From NCBI RefSeq assembly GCF_030813695.1, contig NZ_JAUSVA010000002.1, forward strand, positions 2,852,001-2,916,000: a stretch of 64,000 nt of DNA. Reading direction: 5' to 3'. The DNA is from Kitasatospora herbaricolor (GTDB lineage Bacteria; Actinomycetota; Actinomycetes; Streptomycetales; Streptomycetaceae). The notes under the pieces were generated by a model. The model had not been told where the DNA came from and searched no databases. It saw only the letters and a program-made list of their open reading frames with translations. Of this stretch, positions 6,928-15,062 are shown in pieces. Made by a program: the position numbers and the translations under genes. How positions within the stretch are numbered: the stretch's first letter is position 1; the number at the start of each line of letters is the position of its first letter.

Positions 6928-7542
6928 TTGCCGACCACCACGCCCGACCCGGCCACCACCCCGCCGGCCGGCCTGCCGCTCACCGCGCGGCAGGCCGAGC
7001 GCCGGCTGCGGATCCTGCGCGCCGCCACCGCGCTGGCCGGCCGGGGCGGGTACGAGGCGGTGCAGATGCGCGAGGTCGCGGACGGCGCACAGGTCGCGCT
7101 CGGCACGCTGTACCGCTACTTCCCCTCGAAGGTGCACCTGCTGGTCGCGGTGATGCAGGAGCAGCTCCAGCAGCTGCTGGAGCAGGTCAGGCGCCACCCG
7201 CCGGCCGGCGACGACCCCGCGCTGCGGGTCGCCGAGACGCTCACCCGGGCCTTCCACGCGCTGCAGCGCGAGCCGCTGCTGGCCGAGGCGATGGTGCGGG
7301 CGCTGTCCTTCGCCGACCGCTCGGTCAGCGCCGAGGTCGACCGGGTCAGCGGGCTGACCGCGCAGATCATCCTGGACGCGATCGGGCAGGCCGGCCCGCC
7401 CAGCGAGCAGCAGCGGGCGGCGGTCCGGGTGATCGAGCACACCTGGCACTCGGCGCTGGTCTCCTGGCTGTCCGGCCGGGCCTCGATCGCCGAGGTCCGG
7501 GCGGACCTGCGCACCGCCGCCCGGCTGCTCGCCCTGCCCTGA
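6928..7542 (+). CDS. TetR-family regulator, KstR-like HTH
   Basis: This protein has 204 residues. The only reasonable start is TTG at 6928, behind GGGGG with a spacing of about 5. The DNA-binding part (about residues 20-66) includes GGYEAVQMREVADGA and VALGTLYRYFPSKVHLLV, which closely resembles the helix-turn-helix of mycobacterial KstR-type regulators. The rest is the helical ligand pocket. It is divergent from the glycosyltransferase operon and upstream of the cobalamin-riboswitch operon. Control of the divergent operon is the simplest guess. The ligand is unknown; an acyl-CoA or lipid-like effector would fit KstR relatives, but that is inference. Confidence 0.85.
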   Translation: MPTTTPDPATTPPAGLPLTARQAERRLRILRAATALAGRGGYEAVQMREVADGAQVALGTLYRYFPSKVHLLVAVMQEQLQQLLEQVRRHPPAGDDPALRVAETLTRAFHALQREPLLAEAMVRALSFADRSVSAEVDRVSGLTAQIILDAIGQAGPPSEQQRAAVRVIEHTWHSALVSWLSGRASIAEVRADLRTAARLLALP

Positions 7543-7674: not shown

Positions 7675-7850
7675 GTCGACGGGCACCACCACAACTGCAT
7701 CCGCCGCCCTCCGGGGAAAGCCGGTGCGACACCGGCGCTGACCCCGCAACCGTGAGCCCGCGCCCAGGCGCCGGGCGAGCCGGACCGCCCGGGGAGCGGC
7801 GAGCGGCCCGGCCGGGCGTCCGCCCGGCACCGTCGAGGTCTACGGACGGC
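7675..7850 (+). ncRNA. cobalamin (AdoCbl) riboswitch
   Basis: The conserved core of the cobalamin riboswitch is visible at about 7713-7755: a GGGGAAAGCCGGTG block, then GACACCGGCGCTGACC and CCGCAACCGTGAG. The core pairs as expected (GCCGGTG with CACCGGC). A GC-rich variable arm follows, and a 3' segment near 7830-7850 may be the B12 box. The element ends about 45 bases before the ATG at 7895. It fills most of the 352-base gap 7543-7894 and should repress the whole downstream ECF operon when cobalamin is plentiful. Outer boundaries are approximate. Confidence 0.9.
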
Positions 7851-7894
7851 CCCTCCCGGGGCCACCCACCGCTCATCGAAAGGCTCCACCCACC

Positions 7895-9184
7895 ATGCTG
7901 ACCGCCGCCCGTACGGGCGCCGCCGTGCTGTCCGCCCTGCTGCTGGCCGGCACCGCCGCCGCGCCGGCCCTCGCCGACAGCCCCTCGCCCAGCGCCACCG
8001 TCGCCGTCCCCGCCGGGCTGTACGGGCAGGGCGACCCGACGTACGACGGCGTCTGGCGCCAGTCGCTGGCCCTGGCCGCGCTGGCCGCGGTCAAGGCCGT
8101 CCCCGCCGACAGCGCCGTCGGGTGGCTGACCGGCCAGCAGTGCGCGGACGGCGGCTGGCCGTCCTTCCGCGCCGACACCGCCGCCGCCTGCGACGCGGCC
8201 ACCGAGGACAGCAACGCCACCTCCGTCGCCGTCCAGGCGCTGGCCGCGCTCGGCGGGCACCAGGACGCCGTGGACAAGGGCGTCCAGTGGCTGAAGGCCA
8301 ACCAGAACGCGGACGGCAGCTGGGCCTACAACCCCGGCAACCCCGGTGACGCCAACTCCACCGGCCTGGCCGTCACCGCGCTGATCGCCGCCAAGGCCGA
8401 CCCGGCCACCGTCGCCAGGTCCGGCCGCAGCGGCTACGACGGCCTGGCGCTCTTCCAGCTCGGCTGCGCCGCGCCCGCCGACCAGCGCGGCGCCTTCGCC
8501 TACCAGCCCGACCCCGCCGGCGCGCCGGCCGCCAACGCGCTGGCCTCCGCCCAGGCCGCGCTGGGCGCCGCCGGCGGCCGGCTGCCGGTGACCAACACCA
8601 ATACGGTCGACGCCGCGCCGAAGGCCCTGGCCTGCCCGGCCGGCGCCGCCGCGCAGCCCGTGCCACGCGCCGACTCGGCCGAGGCCGCCGCCGCGTACCT
8701 GACCACCCAGCTGGCCGCCACCGGGCAGCACCTGATGCTCACCCTGCCGGGCGCGACCCCCACCCCCGACTGGACCGCGACCGCCTGGGCGGTGCTGAGC
8801 CTGGTCCAGTCCGGCCACGCCGAGCAGGCCACCGGCGCCGTCGACTGGCTGGCCGCGCAGGGCAGCACCTGGACCAAGGGCGGCACCGACGCCTCCGCCA
8901 CCGCCTCCCTGGTGCTGGTCGCCGAGGCCGCCCGGCGCGACCCCGCCGACTTCGGCGGCACCGACCTCGTCCAGCAGCTGACCGCGGCCGGACCGGCGCT
9001 CAAGTCGGGCCCGTCCTCCGCGACGGCGGCCGCCACCGCCACCGCGAAGAAGGACGACAAGGGCGGTGTCTCCACCCTCTGGGTGATCGGGGTCGGCCTG
9101 CTGATCGGCGTCGGCGGCGGCCTGCTGCTGAGCCTGCAGCGCCGGCGCGGCTCCCAGGGGTCCGCCCGGAAGCCCGGCAAGTGA
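7895..9184 (+). CDS. secreted membrane-anchored alpha-toroid protein, B12-regulated
   Basis: This 429-residue protein has a signal peptide (about 1-28, ending APALADS). Helical repeats follow with QW-like motifs QQCADGGW (81-88) and NQNADGSW (136-143) and repeated xTGLAVTAL-type helices. Then come a Ser/Ala/Lys linker and a C-terminal membrane helix (about 389-408) ending in RRR. This is a terpene-cyclase/prenyltransferase-like alpha6 toroid placed outside the cell, without a DxDD catalytic motif. Intrinsic factor and transcobalamin bind cobalamin with the same kind of toroid. As first gene after a cobalamin riboswitch and before an ECF importer, it is a good candidate cobalamin-binding surface protein. 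The binding role is inferred. Confidence 0.8.
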   Translation: MLTAARTGAAVLSALLLAGTAAAPALADSPSPSATVAVPAGLYGQGDPTYDGVWRQSLALAALAAVKAVPADSAVGWLTGQQCADGGWPSFRADTAAACDAATEDSNATSVAVQALAALGGHQDAVDKGVQWLKANQNADGSWAYNPGNPGDANSTGLAVTALIAAKADPATVARSGRSGYDGLALFQLGCAAPADQRGAFAYQPDPAGAPAANALASAQAALGAAGGRLPVTNTNTVDAAPKALACPAGAAAQPVPRADSAEAAAAYLTTQLAATGQHLMLTLPGATPTPDWTATAWAVLSLVQSGHAEQATGAVDWLAAQGSTWTKGGTDASATASLVLVAEAARRDPADFGGTDLVQQLTAAGPALKSGPSSATAAATATAKKDDKGGVSTLWVIGVGLLIGVGGGLLLSLQRRRGSQGSARKPGK

Positions 9185-9846
9185 CCGTCCAGGCACGCCC
9201 GCGGGCGGTGGCGGCCACGCTGGCCGCCACCGCCCTGCTGGGCCTTCTCGCCGTCCTCGCCGCCGCCCCCGCCCAGGCGACCGGCTACCGCTACTGGTCG
9301 TTCTGGAAGTGGTCCGGCGGCACCTGGGCGTACCAGCAGCAGGGCCCGGCCGTGTACGTCCCGCCGGACGGCTCGGTGGACGGCTGGCGCTTCGCGGTCA
9401 GCCCGGACGGCGGCCGGGACGCCGCCCGCCCGGGCGCGCCCGGCGACTTCGAGGCCGCCTGCGCCGCCACCCCCGCGCAGGCCGGCCGCAAGCGGATCGC
9501 CGTCGTGCTCGACTTCGGCACCGCCGCGGACGCCCCGCCCGGCGCCCTCGCGGCCGGGTCCGCGCCGCCCGCGGCGCGCACGGGCTGCGCCTCGGTGGCC
9601 ACCGGCGCCAGCTCCGCCGAGGTGCTCGCCGCCCTCGCGCCGCCGCTGCGCTACGACGGCGCCGGCATCCTGTGCGCCATCGCCGGGTACCCGGCGGCGG
9701 GCTGCGGCGAGGCCCTGGCCGGGACGCCGTCGGCCTCCGGCGACCGGGGCGGCTCCGGCGGCCCGGACCTCGGCCTGATCGCGGGCGGCGCCGCCGTCGC
9801 GGTGCTGGCCGCCGGGGCCGTCCGGCAGGCCCGCCGGCGCCGCTGA
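9181..9846 (+). CDS. SCO2322-family secreted protein
   Basis: This 221-residue protein starts at a GTG overlapping the previous stop (GTGA). It has a signal peptide (about 1-34, ending AQA), then a small beta-rich domain with YWSFWKWSGG, WAYQQQGP and DGSVDGWRFAVS, a Cys-containing domain of about 100 residues, and a C-terminal membrane helix ending in RQARRRR. The layout fits the SCO2322 family of actinobacteria, which is uncharacterised. The YW...DG..GW(R)F pattern recalls the end of DUF4430, the beta domain of transcobalamin-like proteins; I see this by eye only. It probably works with the toroid protein outside the membrane to present a ligand to the ECF transporter. Confidence 0.8.
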   Translation: MTVQARPRAVAATLAATALLGLLAVLAAAPAQATGYRYWSFWKWSGGTWAYQQQGPAVYVPPDGSVDGWRFAVSPDGGRDAARPGAPGDFEAACAATPAQAGRKRIAVVLDFGTAADAPPGALAAGSAPPAARTGCASVATGASSAEVLAALAPPLRYDGAGILCAIAGYPAAGCGEALAGTPSASGDRGGSGGPDLGLIAGGAAVAVLAAGAVRQARRRR

Positions 9847-9938
9847 CCACCGACCGGCCCTCGCGCCGCGTCCCGTCCGTCCCGTCCCTTCCGTCCCGTC
9901 CGAACCACCCGCCCGCGCCCGCCGACCAGGAACCCGCC

Positions 9939-11042
9939 GTGACCTCACCCCGCCGCACCCGCCCGGCCGCCGGACCACGCCACCTGCACCCCGGGGCGTG
10001 GTGGCTGTGGGCACTGGGCCTGGCGGCGGCCGCCTCCCGCACCACCGACCCGCTGCTGCTCCTGCTGATCGTCGCGGTCGCCGGGTACGTGGTCGCGGCC
10101 CGGCGCAGCGACGCCCCCTGGTCACGCTCGTACGGCACCTTCCTGCGGCTCGGCCTGCTGGTGCTCGGCATCCGGCTGCTGTTCGCCGTACTGCTGGGCT
10201 CCCCCGTGCCCGGCACCCACGTCCTGTTCACGCTGCCCGAGCTGCCCCTGCCCGCCTGGGCGCAGGGCGTCCGGGTGGGCGGCAGGGTCACCGTCGAGGG
10301 CCTGCTGTTCGCGCTGTACGACGGGCTGAAGCTGGCCACCCTGCTGGTCTGCGTCGGCGCCGCCAACGCCCTGGCCAGCCCGGCCCGGCTGCTGCGTGCC
10401 CTGCCCGGCGCGCTCTACGAGGCCGGGGTCGCCGTGGTGGTGGCGATGACCTTCGCCCCGAACCTGGTCGCGGACGTGCAGCGGCTGCGGGCCGCCCGCC
10501 GGCTGCGCGGCCGCTCCGACCGGGGCGCGAAGGCCCTGCTCAGCGTCGGACTCCCGGTGCTGGAGGGCGCGTTGGAGCGCTCGGTCGCACTGGCCGCGGC
10601 GATGGACACCAGGGGTTTCGGCCGCACCGCCGACGTCCCGCCCCGGATCGCCCGCACCACCGCCGCCCTGACCCTGGCCGGTCTGCTCGGGGTCTGCGCC
10701 GCCGCGTACGGACTGCTCGGCTCGGCCGGCACCGGCTGGGCGCTGCCGGTGCTGGCGATCGGCCTGGCCGCCGCCGGCGCCGGGCTGCTGCTCGGCAGCC
10801 GGCGCGCCGCCAGGACCCGCTACCGGCCCGACCCGTGGACCTGGCGCGAGTGGGCGGTGGCCGGCTCGGGCGTGCTGGTGGCCGTCCTGGTGATCAGGCT
10901 GGCGGCGCTGTACCCGGCCGCCTTCGCCCCCTCGTTCGTCCCGCTGACCGCGCCGACCCTGCCGCTGGCCGCCGCGCTGGCGGTGCTGGTCGGCCTGGTG
11001 CCCGCCGTCGCCGCCCCGATCCCGCCCCGGAGTGCCTCATGA
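9939..11042 (+). CDS. ecfT: ECF transporter transmembrane component T
   Basis: This 367-residue EcfT/CbiQ-family protein starts at GTG. It has several hydrophobic helices, and the cytoplasmic coupling region carries both family signatures, RAARRLRG (about residue 185) and AAMDTRGFG (about 225). These Ala-Arg-Gly helices contact the two ATPase domains. The family scaffolds a membrane substrate-binding S protein and the ATPases of energy-coupling-factor vitamin importers. The stop overlaps the ATPase start (ATGA). A gap of about 90 bases separates it from the SCO2322-type gene. The cobalamin riboswitch upstream points to cobalamin or a precursor as cargo. Confidence 0.9.
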   Translation: MTSPRRTRPAAGPRHLHPGAWWLWALGLAAAASRTTDPLLLLLIVAVAGYVVAARRSDAPWSRSYGTFLRLGLLVLGIRLLFAVLLGSPVPGTHVLFTLPELPLPAWAQGVRVGGRVTVEGLLFALYDGLKLATLLVCVGAANALASPARLLRALPGALYEAGVAVVVAMTFAPNLVADVQRLRAARRLRGRSDRGAKALLSVGLPVLEGALERSVALAAAMDTRGFGRTADVPPRIARTTAALTLAGLLGVCAAAYGLLGSAGTGWALPVLAIGLAAAGAGLLLGSRRAARTRYRPDPWTWREWAVAGSGVLVAVLVIRLAALYPAAFAPSFVPLTAPTLPLAAALAVLVGLVPAVAAPIPPRSAS

Positions 11043-12706
11043 TCACCTTCGAGCAGGTCTCGGTCAGCTACCCGGGCGCCGCCGCACCCGCCCTGCAGGG
11101 CCTGGACCTGACCGTCCCCGAGGGCGAACTCTGCCTGCTGGTGGGCCCGTCGGGCTCAGGCAAGTCGACCCTGCTGGGCACCGTCAGCGGCCTCGTGCCG
11201 CACTTCACCGGCGGCGTCCTGCACGGCCGGGTCACCGTCGGCGGCCGCGACACCCGCACCCACCGCCCGCGCGAACTCGCCGACCTGGTCGGCACCGTGG
11301 GCCAGGACCCGCTCGCGCACTTCGTCACCGACACGGTCGAGGACGAACTCGCCTACGGCATGGAGTCGCTGGGCCTGGCACCCGAGGTGATGCGCCGCCG
11401 GGTCGAGGAGACCCTCGACCTGCTCGGGCTCGCCGAACTGCGCGGCCGCGCGCTCACCTCGCTCTCCGGTGGGCAGCAGCAGCGGGTCGCGATCGGCTCG
11501 GTGCTGACCGTCCACCCCAAGGTCCTGGTGCTGGACGAACCGACCTCCGCGCTCGACCCGGGCGCCGCCGAGGAGGTGCTGGCGGTCCTGCAGCGGCTGG
11601 TCCACGACCTCGGCACCACCGTCCTGATGGCCGAGCACCGCCTGGAAAGGGTCGTCCAGTACGCCGACCAGGTGCTGCTGCTCCCCGGCGCCGGACGGGC
11701 CCCGGTGCTGGGCGACCCGGCCGAGGTGATGGCGCACTCCCCCGTCCGCCCGCCGGTGGTGGCCCTCGGCCGGCTGGCCGGCTGGTCCCCGCTGCCGCTG
11801 TCGGTGCGCGACGCCCGGCGCCGGGCCGCCCCGCTGCGGGCCCGGCTGGACGGCCTGCGGCCGCCCGACGCCGCCGACGCCGCCGACACCCGACCGGCCG
11901 ACACCCGACCGGCCGACGCCCGGCCGACCGGCGAGCCGGTCGCCACCGTACGGCGCCTGGTGGTCCGGCGTGGACCGGTGCCCGCCCTGCGCGGCGTCGA
12001 CCTGACCCTGCACGCCGGTGGGATCACTGCCCTGATGGGCCGCAACGGCGCCGGCAAGTCCACCCTGCTCGGCAGCCTGGTCGGCCTGCACGCCCCCGCC
12101 TCCGGCACCGTACGGGTCGGCGGCCTGACCCCGCACCAGGCCCGCCCGAAGGACCTGGTCCGCCGGGCCGGGCTCGTCCCGCAGGACCCGCGCGACCTGC
12201 TGTACGGCGAGAGCGTCCGCGCCGAGTGCGCGGCCGCCGACCAGGACGCCGGCGCCGGGCCGGGCAGCTGCCGCGCCCTGGTCGAGCGGCTGCTGCCCGG
12301 CATCTCCGACGACACCCACCCGCGGGACCTCTCCGAGGGCCAGCGGCTCAGCCTCGCCCTGGCCGTGGTGCTGACCTCCCGGCCGCCCCTGCTGCTGCTG
12401 GACGAGCCCACCCGCGGCCTGGACTACGCCGCCAAGGCCAGACTGGTGGAGATCCTGCGCGCGCTGGCCGCCGACGCGCACGCCGTGCTGCTCGCCACCC
12501 ACGACGTCGAACTCGCCGCCGCGCTCGCCCACCGCACGGTGATCCTGGCCGACGGCGAGATCGTCGCGGACGGCCCGACCCCGGAGATCGTGCTCTCCTC
12601 CCCCGCCTTCGCGCCCCAGGTCGCCAAGATCCTCAGTCCCTCGCCCTGGCTGACCGTCCACCAGGTCGAGCAGGCCCTGGCCGGCGCCGAAGGCGGCCCG
12701 GCATGA
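11039..12706 (+). CDS. fused ECF ATPase (A-A')
   Basis: This 555-residue protein contains two ABC ATPase domains. The first has Walker A GPSGSGKST (about 38-46), signature LSGGQQQR and Walker B VLVLDEPTSALD. The second, after a linker with a repeated DTRPA sequence, has GRNGAGKST, a degenerate signature LSEGQRLS and LLLLDEPTRGLD. It thus supplies both EcfA subunits of the importer in one chain and drives transport through EcfT. ATGA overlaps join it to the T gene before and the S gene after. The altered second signature suggests one of the two ATP sites may be weaker, which is seen in other heteromeric ABC systems. Confidence 0.92.
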   Translation: MITFEQVSVSYPGAAAPALQGLDLTVPEGELCLLVGPSGSGKSTLLGTVSGLVPHFTGGVLHGRVTVGGRDTRTHRPRELADLVGTVGQDPLAHFVTDTVEDELAYGMESLGLAPEVMRRRVEETLDLLGLAELRGRALTSLSGGQQQRVAIGSVLTVHPKVLVLDEPTSALDPGAAEEVLAVLQRLVHDLGTTVLMAEHRLERVVQYADQVLLLPGAGRAPVLGDPAEVMAHSPVRPPVVALGRLAGWSPLPLSVRDARRRAAPLRARLDGLRPPDAADAADTRPADTRPADARPTGEPVATVRRLVVRRGPVPALRGVDLTLHAGGITALMGRNGAGKSTLLGSLVGLHAPASGTVRVGGLTPHQARPKDLVRRAGLVPQDPRDLLYGESVRAECAAADQDAGAGPGSCRALVERLLPGISDDTHPRDLSEGQRLSLALAVVLTSRPPLLLLDEPTRGLDYAAKARLVEILRALAADAHAVLLATHDVELAAALAHRTVILADGEIVADGPTPEIVLSSPAFAPQVAKILSPSPWLTVHQVEQALAGAEGGPA

Positions 12707-13656
12707 GCGGCGGGACGAAGCCCGCCGGCGACGCCGCCGGCCCCCGGAGCGCGGACGCGGACAGGCTCCCGCTCGCCTCCGCCGCCGACCACGCCAGGCT
12801 GGCCCGGCCCGTCCCGCTCGGCCGGCGCTCGGTCGCCACCCTGCTGGTGATCTCGGCGATCGGCGTGGTGGCCTTCGGCTGGCCGCTGCTCGCCGCCACC
12901 GACTCCGCCCTGGTCGGGCACTCCGCCGACGCACCCTGGCTGTTCGCCCTGCTGCTGCCGCTGCTGCTCGCCGTGGTGGTGGCCCAGATCTCCGAGGGAC
13001 GCTCCGCCGACGGCGAGCCCGGCCTGGACGCCAAGTCGGTCGCCCTGCTGGGCATGCTGGCGGCCGCCGGCGCGGCCCTGCGGCCGCTCGGCGCCGGGAC
13101 GGCCGGCCTGGAACCGATGTTCTTCCTGATGGTGCTCTCCGGCCGGGTGCTCGGGCCCGGCTTCGGCTTCGTCCTCGGGTCGGTCTCGATGTTCGCCTCC
13201 GCGCTGCTGACCGGTGGGGTCGGCCCGTGGCTGCCGTTCCAGATGCTCTCGATGGGCTGGGTCTGCCTCGGCGCGGGCCTGCTGCCCGGCCCCGCCACCG
13301 TGCGCGGCCGCCGCGAACTCGCCCTGCTGGCGGCCTACGGCGCCGGCTCCGCCGTCGCGTACGGGACGGTCATGAACCTGCAGGGCTGGCCGTACATCGG
13401 CGGCCTCTCCAGCTCGGTCTCCTTCGTCGCCGGCGCGCCGCTCGGCGAGAACCTCCCCCGCTTCGTGGCCTACTGCCTCACCACCTCGCTCGGCTGGGAC
13501 CTCCCCCGCGCCGCGCTCACCGTGGTGCTCTGCCTGACCCTCGGCGGACCCGTGCTGCGTACCCTGCGCCGGGCCTCCCGGCGCGCCGCCTTCGGTGCCC
13601 CGGTCGTCTTCACCGGGGCACCGGACAACAGGGACGACGGCCCGGCGGCGGGCTGA
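12703..13656 (+). CDS. ECF transporter S component (predicted cobalamin-specific)
   Basis: This 317-residue protein starts at an ATG overlapping the ATPase stop (ATGA). A polar N-terminal tail of about 40 residues precedes about six or seven hydrophobic helices. The core has AAAGAALRPLG, EPMFFLMVLSGRVLGPGFGF and GGVGPWLPFQM, the Gly-rich helix pattern of ECF S proteins. S components bind the vitamin in the membrane and topple to deliver it. The cargo is not evident from the protein alone; the cobalamin riboswitch at the head of the operon makes cobalamin or a corrinoid most likely. The gene ends 12 bases before a convergent ketosynthase gene. Confidence 0.85.
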   Translation: MSGGTKPAGDAAGPRSADADRLPLASAADHARLARPVPLGRRSVATLLVISAIGVVAFGWPLLAATDSALVGHSADAPWLFALLLPLLLAVVVAQISEGRSADGEPGLDAKSVALLGMLAAAGAALRPLGAGTAGLEPMFFLMVLSGRVLGPGFGFVLGSVSMFASALLTGGVGPWLPFQMLSMGWVCLGAGLLPGPATVRGRRELALLAAYGAGSAVAYGTVMNLQGWPYIGGLSSSVSFVAGAPLGENLPRFVAYCLTTSLGWDLPRAALTVVLCLTLGGPVLRTLRRASRRAAFGAPVVFTGAPDNRDDGPAAG

Positions 13657-13668: not shown

Positions 13669-14892
13669 TCAGCGCGCCGCGGTGAACACCAGCGAGGCGT
13701 TGTGGCCGCCGAACCCGAAGGAGTTGACCAGCGCCGCGCCCGCCGGGCCCCGGCGGGGCGCGCCGACCACGACGTCCAGCTCCACCCGCGGGTCCTGCTC
13801 CCGCAGGTTCACGGTGGCGGGGACGACCCCCTCGCGCAGGGCCAGCACGGCGGCGACCGCCCCGAGCGCCCCCGCCGCGCCGAAGAGATGGCCGGTCATC
13901 GACTTGGTGGCGGTGACCACCGGGTGGGTGCCGACCGCCGCCACGATCGACCCGGCCTCGGTGAGGTCCCCCAGCTGCGTGGACGTCGCGTGCGCGTGCA
14001 CCTGCCCGATCCCGGCCGGGCCGAGACCGGCGGCAGCCAGGGCCAGCCGGATCGCCCGGACCTGCCCGTCCTGGTGCGCGGCGGTGATGTGGTGCGCGTC
14101 GGAGGTCACCCCGGCCCCGGCCAGCACGGCGTGCACCCGGGCCGCGCGCGCGGCGGCGAATCCGGCCCGCTCCAGCACCACCAGGGCGCAGCCCTCGCCG
14201 ATCACGAAGCCGTCCCGGCCGGTGTCGAAGGGCCTGGAAGCCTCCTGCGGCGCGTCGTTGCGGGTGGAGTGCGCCCTCGCCCGGGTGAAGCCGGCCATCG
14301 GCAGCGGGTGGATGCACGCCTCGGTGCCGCCGGCCACCACCACGTCCGCGCGGCCCAGCCGGATCAGGTCCAGTCCGGTCGCGATCGCCTCGGCGCCCGA
14401 GGCGCACGCGCTGACCGGGGTGCGGGCCCCGCCCTTGGCGCCCAGGTCGATGCTGACCCAGGCCGCCAGCCCGTTCGCCATCAGCATCGGCACGGTGTGC
14501 GGGGAGACCTTGCGCACCCCGGAGGCCTCCAGGACGTCGTCCTGGCCGAGCATGCTCAGCGCCCCGCCCGTACCGGTACCGATCACCACGGCCAGCCGCT
14601 CCGGCTCGACCTCGGGACGCCCCGCGTCGGCCCACGCCTGCCGGGCCGCGACCAGGGCGATCTGCTCGCACCGGTCGAGCCGCCGGGCCTGTACCCGGTC
14701 CAGCACCTCGGTGGGTTCGACCCGCAGCCGGCCCGCGATCCGGGCGGGCAGCGCGGCCGCCCAGTCCTCCGTGATCGGGCCGATCCCGGACTCCCCGGCC
14801 AGCATCGCGGCCCAGGTCGAGGCCACGTCCCCGCCGAGCGGGGTGGTGGCCCCCAGCCCGGTCACCACCACATCCTCCATGTTCAGCGTCAC
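13669..14892 (-). CDS. beta-ketoacyl-ACP synthase (FabF/KAS II type)
   Basis: This thiolase-fold condensing enzyme has about 407 residues. Two adjacent GTGs (14895 and 14892) follow AAGGGGG; the second has the better spacing. An internal ATG five codons on is also possible. The catalytic triad is intact: Cys in SACASGAEAI (about 163), His in HAHATSTQLGD (about 301) and His in SMTGHLFGAAG (about 335), with GFGFGGHN near the C-terminus. It should elongate an acyl-ACP with malonyl-ACP. There is no acyl carrier protein or malonyltransferase gene beside it, so this is a solitary KAS for fatty acid or small polyketide-like chains. A 217-base gap with a hairpin separates it from the ABM gene. Confidence 0.9.
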   Translation of the reverse strand: MTLNMEDVVVTGLGATTPLGGDVASTWAAMLAGESGIGPITEDWAAALPARIAGRLRVEPTEVLDRVQARRLDRCEQIALVAARQAWADAGRPEVEPERLAVVIGTGTGGALSMLGQDDVLEASGVRKVSPHTVPMLMANGLAAWVSIDLGAKGGARTPVSACASGAEAIATGLDLIRLGRADVVVAGGTEACIHPLPMAGFTRARAHSTRNDAPQEASRPFDTGRDGFVIGEGCALVVLERAGFAAARAARVHAVLAGAGVTSDAHHITAAHQDGQVRAIRLALAAAGLGPAGIGQVHAHATSTQLGDLTEAGSIVAAVGTHPVVTATKSMTGHLFGAAGALGAVAAVLALREGVVPATVNLREQDPRVELDVVVGAPRRGPAGAALVNSFGFGGHNASLVFTAAR

Positions 14893-15062
14893 CACTGAAC
14901 CCCCTTGTCAGAGTGATACACCTCACGCCCGGTCTCCGGGCGGACGGTGCTCAACGCATCCATCACTCTGCCAAGGGAATTGCCGACCCTCCGGCATCGA
15001 ACGGTACGGAGTCGCAGCAAGATCCTTTGTAGGGTTCCCATAAATCGGCCGGGCAGTCCGGC

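Follow-up and report, generated by a model that had tools for sequence, protein, structure and literature searches.

A B12-riboswitch operon of Kitasatospora herbaricolor very probably encodes a corrinoid-catching device built from two circularly permuted, transcobalamin-like halves

The window analyzed here is a stretch of 64,000 nucleotides from Kitasatospora herbaricolor (contig NZ_JAUSVA010000002.1, positions 2,852,001 to 2,916,000), and its subject is an operon on the forward strand, at 7720-13656 of the window. In this operon, a cobalamin riboswitch core is followed by genes for a putatively exported toroid protein, a putatively exported small protein and an energy-coupling factor (ECF) transporter consisting of EcfT, a fused EcfA-A' ATPase and a substrate-specific (S) component, in that order. 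The features are as follows.

7720-7784, forward strand: cobalamin riboswitch core, covering positions 51-164 of RF00174 (targeted search, 24.1 bits, E 2.8e-4)
7811-7828, forward strand: G+C-rich hairpin 3' of the aptamer core, an inverted repeat matched by a CRISPR-repeat model far under its gathering score
7895-9184, forward strand: alpha/alpha toroid P0001 of the SCO2321 family, 429 amino acids, predicted to be exported, with a C-terminal hydrophobic anchor, circularly permuted by profile comparison; proposed alpha half of a corrinoid clamp
9181-9846, forward strand: small protein P0002 of the SCO2322 family, 221 amino acids, predicted to be exported, with a C-terminal hydrophobic anchor; putative circularly permuted transcobalamin-type beta domain, the proposed beta half
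9939-11042, forward strand: EcfT (CbiQ-type) transmembrane energizing subunit, PF02361, start codon GTG at 9939
11039-12706, forward strand: fused EcfA-EcfA' ATPase with two ATP-binding cassette (ABC) stretches
12703-13656, forward strand: ECF S component, PF12822, of a family conserved among relatives

Domain matches confirmed every element of the gene set that an earlier note, made from the sequence alone, had listed for this operon (toroid, SCO2322-type protein, EcfT, fused EcfA-A' and S component). The toroid and the small protein match two NCBIfam families, SCO2321_fam (E 6.8e-128, 427 bits, cut-off 300) and SCO2322_fam (E 7.7e-56, 188.5 bits, cut-off 85), respectively. In Pfam, P0001 matched toroid-type models including SQHop_cyclase_C (6.2e-9), and P0002 matched nothing at E <= 1, nor did PF14478, the model of DUF4430, match it. 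The EcfT product exceeded the cut-off of the CbiQ model PF02361 (28.6 bits vs 25), and the fused ATPase, with two ABC_tran stretches, exceeded that of TIGR01166, a cobalt ATP-binding protein (240.2 bits vs 211.8), its two best ECF_ATPase models both lying under their cut-offs. The S component stood barely above the cut-off of PF12822 (31.4 bits vs 30.7), so that by domain matches the window has the complete ECF vitamin transporter set (S component, EcfT and a pair of ATPase domains); CbiM and CbiN models were absent from the matches of the operon's five proteins. The genes had also been described as mostly overlapping, and they do overlap at three of the four junctions (9181-9184 between the toroid and small-protein genes, 11039-11042 and 12703-12706), the exception being EcfT, which starts about 90 bases after the end of the small gene. 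Export of P0001 and P0002 is predicted because both proteins carry hydrophobic stretches at the N-terminus as well as at the C-terminus.

Within the window itself the riboswitch is the weakest element of the operon, since its core falls under the RF00174 gathering score of 31.5 and an Rfam scan of the entire 64-kb window returned no model at its gathering score, yet it is convincing because the leaders of orthologous operons carry it. Regions of 1 kb ahead of 37 operons were surveyed at an Rfam E <= 0.05, representing 37 of the 40 relatives' loci described below (no upstream DNA was available at L042, L052 and L076, and for L072 the region was placed by hand). A B12-class aptamer was found on the operon strand in 33 of these 37 regions (20/20 plus 13/17), 16 of them at the gathering score, and in none of 20 control regions located 4 kb further upstream at 20 of the surveyed loci. 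Matches were not found at this threshold upstream of the operons of L210, L211, L215 and L220, and two loci (L204 and L219) additionally reached a gathering score on the opposite strand. The riboswitch claimed by the earlier note was borne out through its sub-gathering core and these orthologous leaders, and homologous operons, whose consistent lack of such a riboswitch had been named in advance as evidence against the whole reading, were found to keep it. Moreover, in six genomes with a toroid gene away from the transporter, five of the six genes carry a B12-class riboswitch of their own (the gene of L248 gave no match), so the toroid itself is, judging from these leaders, part of B12 physiology, on evidence separate from that of the operon leaders. 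The G+C-rich hairpin at 7811-7828 is a possible expression platform. Opposite the operon strand, L212 has a thiamine pyrophosphate riboswitch match that stays under its gathering score.

The SCO2322 model was run against 396 genomes of the phylum, matching 54 of them, 13 above the cut-off; the SCO2322 family was found in every one of the 12 genomes that this sample contained from the window's own family, and several of the weak matches show the two halves of the model in swapped order. Besides the window's own locus, 40 neighbourhoods were taken from 39 of the 54 genomes (G171 counted twice, 14 genomes unused). EcfT and the ATPase adjoin the SCO2322 match in 39 of the 40 and the S component in 38, two neighbourhoods (L052 and L062) ending at contig ends and one (L072) having the transporter divergent from the toroid and beta genes, while a toroid was found in 35 (not in L039, L041, L047, L052 and L055). 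Because they share this neighbourhood, the proteins with swapped order are regarded as positional orthologues of SCO2322. Starting from two unpermuted beta seeds, profiles were grown that matched all 40 neighbourhoods, as expected for loci picked by this very protein. We also used a bait containing neither toroid nor beta domain, the S-component profile A1 (37 sequences), and considered the best 80 of 591 confirmed loci, 10 of which lacked EcfT and 12 of which had EcfT too close to the edge for the beta count. Among these best 80, EcfT was more than 1.2 kb away from the edge at 58 loci, 56 of which had a beta domain upstream of it, and more than 2.8 kb away at 54 loci, 43 of which had a toroid there. 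Titles among the best 80 include Streptomyces, Kribbella, Knoellia, Janibacter, Lentzea, Crossiella, Amycolatopsis, Nitriliruptoraceae, Nanopelagicales and Acidimicrobiales.

Some of these genomes contain further copies. A genome of the window's family carries the complete system a second time, in unpermuted form (L069, G171:C1:3644500-3660500), with B12 riboswitch matches upstream on both strands and a PF14478 match nearby. An extra beta domain beyond the usual one was seen in Knoellia (L109), Lentzea (L136), Crossiella (L144) and Amycolatopsis (L158), and an extra stand-alone beta-domain gene at L074:2598-3161 lies on the opposite strand, facing the end of the operon's S gene.

Comparison with these relatives revealed that both proteins of the window are circularly permuted, according to their sequence profiles, with respect to relatives having the domain order of transcobalamin. 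When the alignment of unpermuted beta domains (A4, 53 of 55) was compared with that of the permuted form (A2, 44 of 46 relatives with the window's protein first, 45 in total), the native order aligned over 44 columns (E 6.6e-17) and the order with swapped halves over 110 columns (E 8.8e-29). Likewise, the toroid profiles aligned over 199 columns with a score of 301 in native order and over 304 columns with a score of 432 when swapped at the observed boundary. A further toroid alignment, A6, comprised 34 of 38 toroids. A shift in repeat register was considered as the cause of this signal and rejected, given that four other cuts scored 240, 335, 407 and 351 against 432. Close to its C end, P0001 has the motif LVAExAxRDxxDFGG, which in the L070 protein occurs about one third into the chain. 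At loci where both proteins were readable, both were unpermuted in 43, both permuted in 38 and mixed in one (L118), counts that come from related loci and are not independent cases; L163 was classed as permuted by hand, the automatic reading of its domain limits being wrong. The permuted loci belong to Streptomyces, Kribbella (beta), Nanopelagicales-like bins, L055 and L183, and no toroid was found beside the permuted small protein of Kribbella. This permutation is a feature that the earlier note missed when it described the toroid and the SCO2322-type protein as alpha and beta halves, an assignment that is otherwise supported via the relatives, and it is probably the reason why Pfam misses the small protein. 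A precedent exists in another beta-grasp domain, the ubiquitin-fold domain (UFD) of E1 enzymes, for which circular permutation is described in the part of the source available (PMC1949818).

In a quick S-component tree (119 rows), three changes are enough for each of the two traits, a provisional count since many forks are open. In the Nitriliruptoraceae bin L118 (4323-6161), the toroid is permuted as in Streptomyces and its beta domain and the readable related loci are unpermuted, which apparently reflects an independent event. Two record names appear doubtful from the same tree: the "Bifidobacterium breve" bin L135 groups with the Nanopelagicales-like bins, and Streptomyces sp. SID13031 (L174) groups with Kribbella.

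The likeness of the two halves to the two domains of transcobalamin emerges, by sequence and by model, through natural fusions in relatives. Toroid and beta domain occur in one reading frame, toroid first, at five loci (L044, L048, L075, L125 and L128). The first three represent three genomes of one single genus and have separate beta genes beside the fusion, and no separate beta gene was found at the loci of L125 and L128; the L125 fusion has hydrophobic stretches between its halves, leaving L128 as the clean case. The opposite arrangement, with a beta domain ahead of the toroid in the same frame, was observed in L144 and weakly in L109. Additionally, CWB2 domains in the L048 fusion and SLH domains in the L070 toroid point to the cell surface.

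An AlphaFold2 model of the L128 fusion was built from an alignment of 90 rows (A3, comprising 37 of 38 toroids, 48 of 55 unpermuted beta domains and the five fusions), with a predicted local distance difference test score (pLDDT) of 89.5 and a predicted template modelling score (pTM) of 0.77. The model consists of a helical toroid followed by strand-strand-helix-strand-strand-strand-strand; the strands after the helix at 387-392 and 395-401, the only two clear ones there and read by us as a hairpin, align with the corresponding stretch of DUF4430 in the profile comparison. In a Foldseek search of the PDB, ranks 1-15 of 566 were all transcobalamin, intrinsic factor or haptocorrin (E 2.4e-9 to 1.0e-7), with squalene-hopene cyclases from rank 16 on. 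Those fifteen matches span both domains, since they comprise 463-495 alignment columns for a model of 464 residues. A fold like the transcobalamin alpha/beta pair, as the earlier note had anticipated, was therefore recovered in a relative's protein, not in the window's pair. Considering the toroid-type Pfam models together with the Foldseek and VIA matches of the L128 model, P0001 is classed as a predicted alpha/alpha toroid.

The beta domain can also be linked to transcobalamin by sequence. DUF4430 is described as the C-terminal domain of transcobalamins in the available part of one source (PMC4350170), and the unpermuted beta profile A4 matched a profile of DUF4430 members (A5, 29 of 30 PF14478 loci) with E 4.4e-6, probability 86.7 and a score of 38.4 over 91 columns, a match spanning the whole DUF4430 domain; the controls scored at most 12.7 (five column shuffles) and 8.9 (reversal). 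DUF4430 members searched against the PDB by sequence gave weak transcobalamin matches (E 0.05 and 0.18 for transcobalamin-1 and -2, and 2.5). The Foldseek match over both domains and the DUF4430 profile match thus assign a transcobalamin-type beta-grasp domain to the unpermuted relatives, and the swapped-halves alignment extends the same assignment, by putative descent, to the small protein of the window.

Altogether, these results suggest, with a probability that we put at about 0.83, that the operon specifies an extracellular corrinoid clamp made of two pieces, together with its importer, and very probably a B12-catching device that has until now been filed as unknown. The toroid and the SCO2322-type beta protein would be exported, each remaining tethered to the membrane by its C-terminal hydrophobic segment, and the two halves would close on cobalamin or another corrinoid in the manner of transcobalamin's two domains. 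This cargo would then be handed to the S component and pumped inward by EcfT and EcfAA', and the B12 riboswitch would turn the operon off once the B12 coenzyme suffices. We also lean, with less assurance, toward a broader proposal in which an actinobacterial clade has a two-jaw, membrane-tethered transcobalamin, with the beta domain permuted, and both halves permuted in Streptomyces and the Nanopelagicales-like bins; by shifting the chain ends, the permutation may have allowed two separately anchored proteins to enclose a corrinoid at the membrane and pass it on to the ECF S component.

Several observations weigh against the proposed clamp. The permuted subfamily matches DUF4430 weakly, whether swapped (E 0.0012, probability 19.7) or native (E 0.0014, probability 17.5), and because swapping is no help, the DUF4430 link of the window's subfamily runs through its relatives. 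The A4 profile searched against the PDB by sequence retrieved no transcobalamin, only an antibody chain (E 2.4), and PF14478 matched none of nine unpermuted relatives in HMMER. The L128 fusion superimposes on transcobalamins with TM-scores of 0.34-0.38 and root-mean-square deviations of 22-24, meaning that the model does not reproduce how the two domains sit relative to each other. Besides, VIA-align ranks single toroids at the top for this model, with squalene-hopene cyclases at Z 26, and its 50 listed rows include no transcobalamin. The structure prediction proposed for the 221-residue protein yielded a confident model of its small domain (pLDDT 91.8, pTM 0.87), but nothing convincing in the PDB (Foldseek best E 3.1; VIA best Z 2.2). 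As Foldseek and VIA keep chain order, such an absence is what a permuted domain would give, though an unrelated one would give it too. Some genomes have a beta protein and no toroid that could be found, namely G062 (L055) and those behind L164, L174 and L166, and the toroid search gave nothing beyond weak partial matches in the genomes behind L171 and L173; where no toroid was found, either it has diverged or the beta protein may be able to act alone. Finally, the 12 genomes of the window's family with a beta match all have cobJ, which encodes a corrin-ring enzyme, and thus have a source of corrinoid besides import. CobJ was above its cut-off in 105 of 392 genomes and the beta profile matched 66 of 392; counted by hand, cobJ occurs in 6 of 54 beta carriers outside the window's family and in 87 of 326 genomes without beta. 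This pattern is suggestive of scavenging outside the window's family and of salvage beside synthesis inside it, and little weight is given to it because related genomes are not independent.

The alternative that survives best, although unlikely, dispenses with a joint clamp, the beta protein alone being the corrinoid receptor for the S component and the toroid a separate binder (a store or a cell-wall shuttle). Its main argument is the genomes in which no toroid was found; the toroids at another locus in some genomes, the more regular placement of beta than of the toroid ahead of EcfT (56/58 and 43/54 among the best 80 of 591 loci) and the separate beta genes beside the L044, L048 and L075 fusions are in agreement with it. 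The fusions themselves, and the overlap of the toroid and beta genes in the window, fit it poorly, as does the observation that the two halves are permuted together or unpermuted together at all but one of the loci counted above, with the caution that these loci are related. Distinctly less probable is that the system would import cobalt or some different nutrient related to B12, for instance a lower-ligand base, with the toroid and small protein as accessories that bind no corrinoid. B12 riboswitches control cobalt transporters too, and both EcfT and the ATPase match cobalt-type models; the S component, however, matches a vitamin-type model, the CbiM and CbiN models are absent from the matches, and the fused form is nearest to corrinoid carriers among solved chains. 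That the toroid is a terpene or squalene cyclase-like enzyme with no role in a trap is very improbable, for despite its SQHop_cyclase_C match and the squalene-hopene cyclases nearest to the toroid by Z, the DxDD motif, which is catalytic in class II terpene cyclases, is seen in 12 of the 85 toroid domains (its second residue varying) and not in the window's toroid, some relatives have toroid-beta fusions, and five of six transporter-distant toroids have a B12 riboswitch of their own.

The general idea of a toroid and transcobalamin-type trap beside an importer, which the earlier note had put forward and which our results support, had already been predicted in 2007. The available part of that study defined the SLBB superfamily from transcobalamin and described bacterial proteins with an SLBB domain fused to either side of a toroid, as well as second SLBB genes and operons that include CbiO/CbiQ. 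A role in B12 scavenging was predicted there for the mostly surface SLBB/toroid proteins, and low-GC Gram-positives and archaea were named (Burroughs et al., 2007, PMC1796856). Those systems resemble the one described here in combining toroid and beta domains, mostly at the surface, with adjoining CbiO/CbiQ-type transporter genes. In contrast, the same part of the text contains neither Streptomyces nor "permut-" nor "riboswitch", and the window's proteins and nine relatives are unmatched by PF14478 (Burroughs et al., 2007). The novelty of the present findings lies in the permuted SCO2321/SCO2322 forms. Experimental papers on the SCO2321 and SCO2322 families, or on a transcobalamin-like protein of bacteria alongside an ECF transporter, did not turn up in a search that left subscription journals mostly uncovered; the lone literature match for SCO2321 was discarded, as it concerns a transdermal peptide in the part available (PMC9237094).

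Transcobalamin, intrinsic factor and haptocorrin of animals are likewise composed of toroid and beta domains, in the same order as the actinobacterial fusions. They are single chains, whereas in the window there are two independently anchored chains, both apparently circularly permuted; animal B12 carriers use endocytic receptors and the window's pair adjoins an ECF importer. Since its toroid and beta domain are on two chains, the pair is not classed as a transcobalamin, even though it would work like one. B12 capture in Bacteroides takes place at the outer membrane, is linked to TonB and depends on proteins other than those in the window. The surface lipoproteins involved, according to the available part of their description, capture B12 ahead of an importer (PMC6143338), which is the likeness to the device proposed here.

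To our knowledge, no extracellular capture step is known for ECF transporters. ECF-CbrT of Lactobacillus delbrueckii imports B12 and cobinamide, and the part of its description available presents the S component itself as the binding protein (PMC5997447); the window's system is likewise an ECF-type importer, unlike ECF-CbrT in that the latter's S component itself does the binding. The A1 S-component profile matched no S component in the PDB at E <= 1.

The analysis thus offers a likely function for two families that NCBIfam names by locus number only, and proposes an extracellular capture step for an importer of the ECF class, in which binding is ascribed to the S component (PMC5997447, in part). 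Fusions, split pairs and permuted pairs form a natural series that would indicate how far such a clamp tolerates splitting and re-cutting, and the same series bears on how the B12 carriers of animals relate to those of bacteria. Besides, the small protein is a putative example of a circular permutation hiding a family from domain models.

Two genes flank the operon in the window. A regulator-like gene at 6928-7542 (TetR-type by eye) is on the same strand and ends about 180 bases ahead of the riboswitch core, and a beta-ketoacyl-synthase-like gene (by eye) at 13669-14895 on the reverse strand is convergent with the end of the operon.

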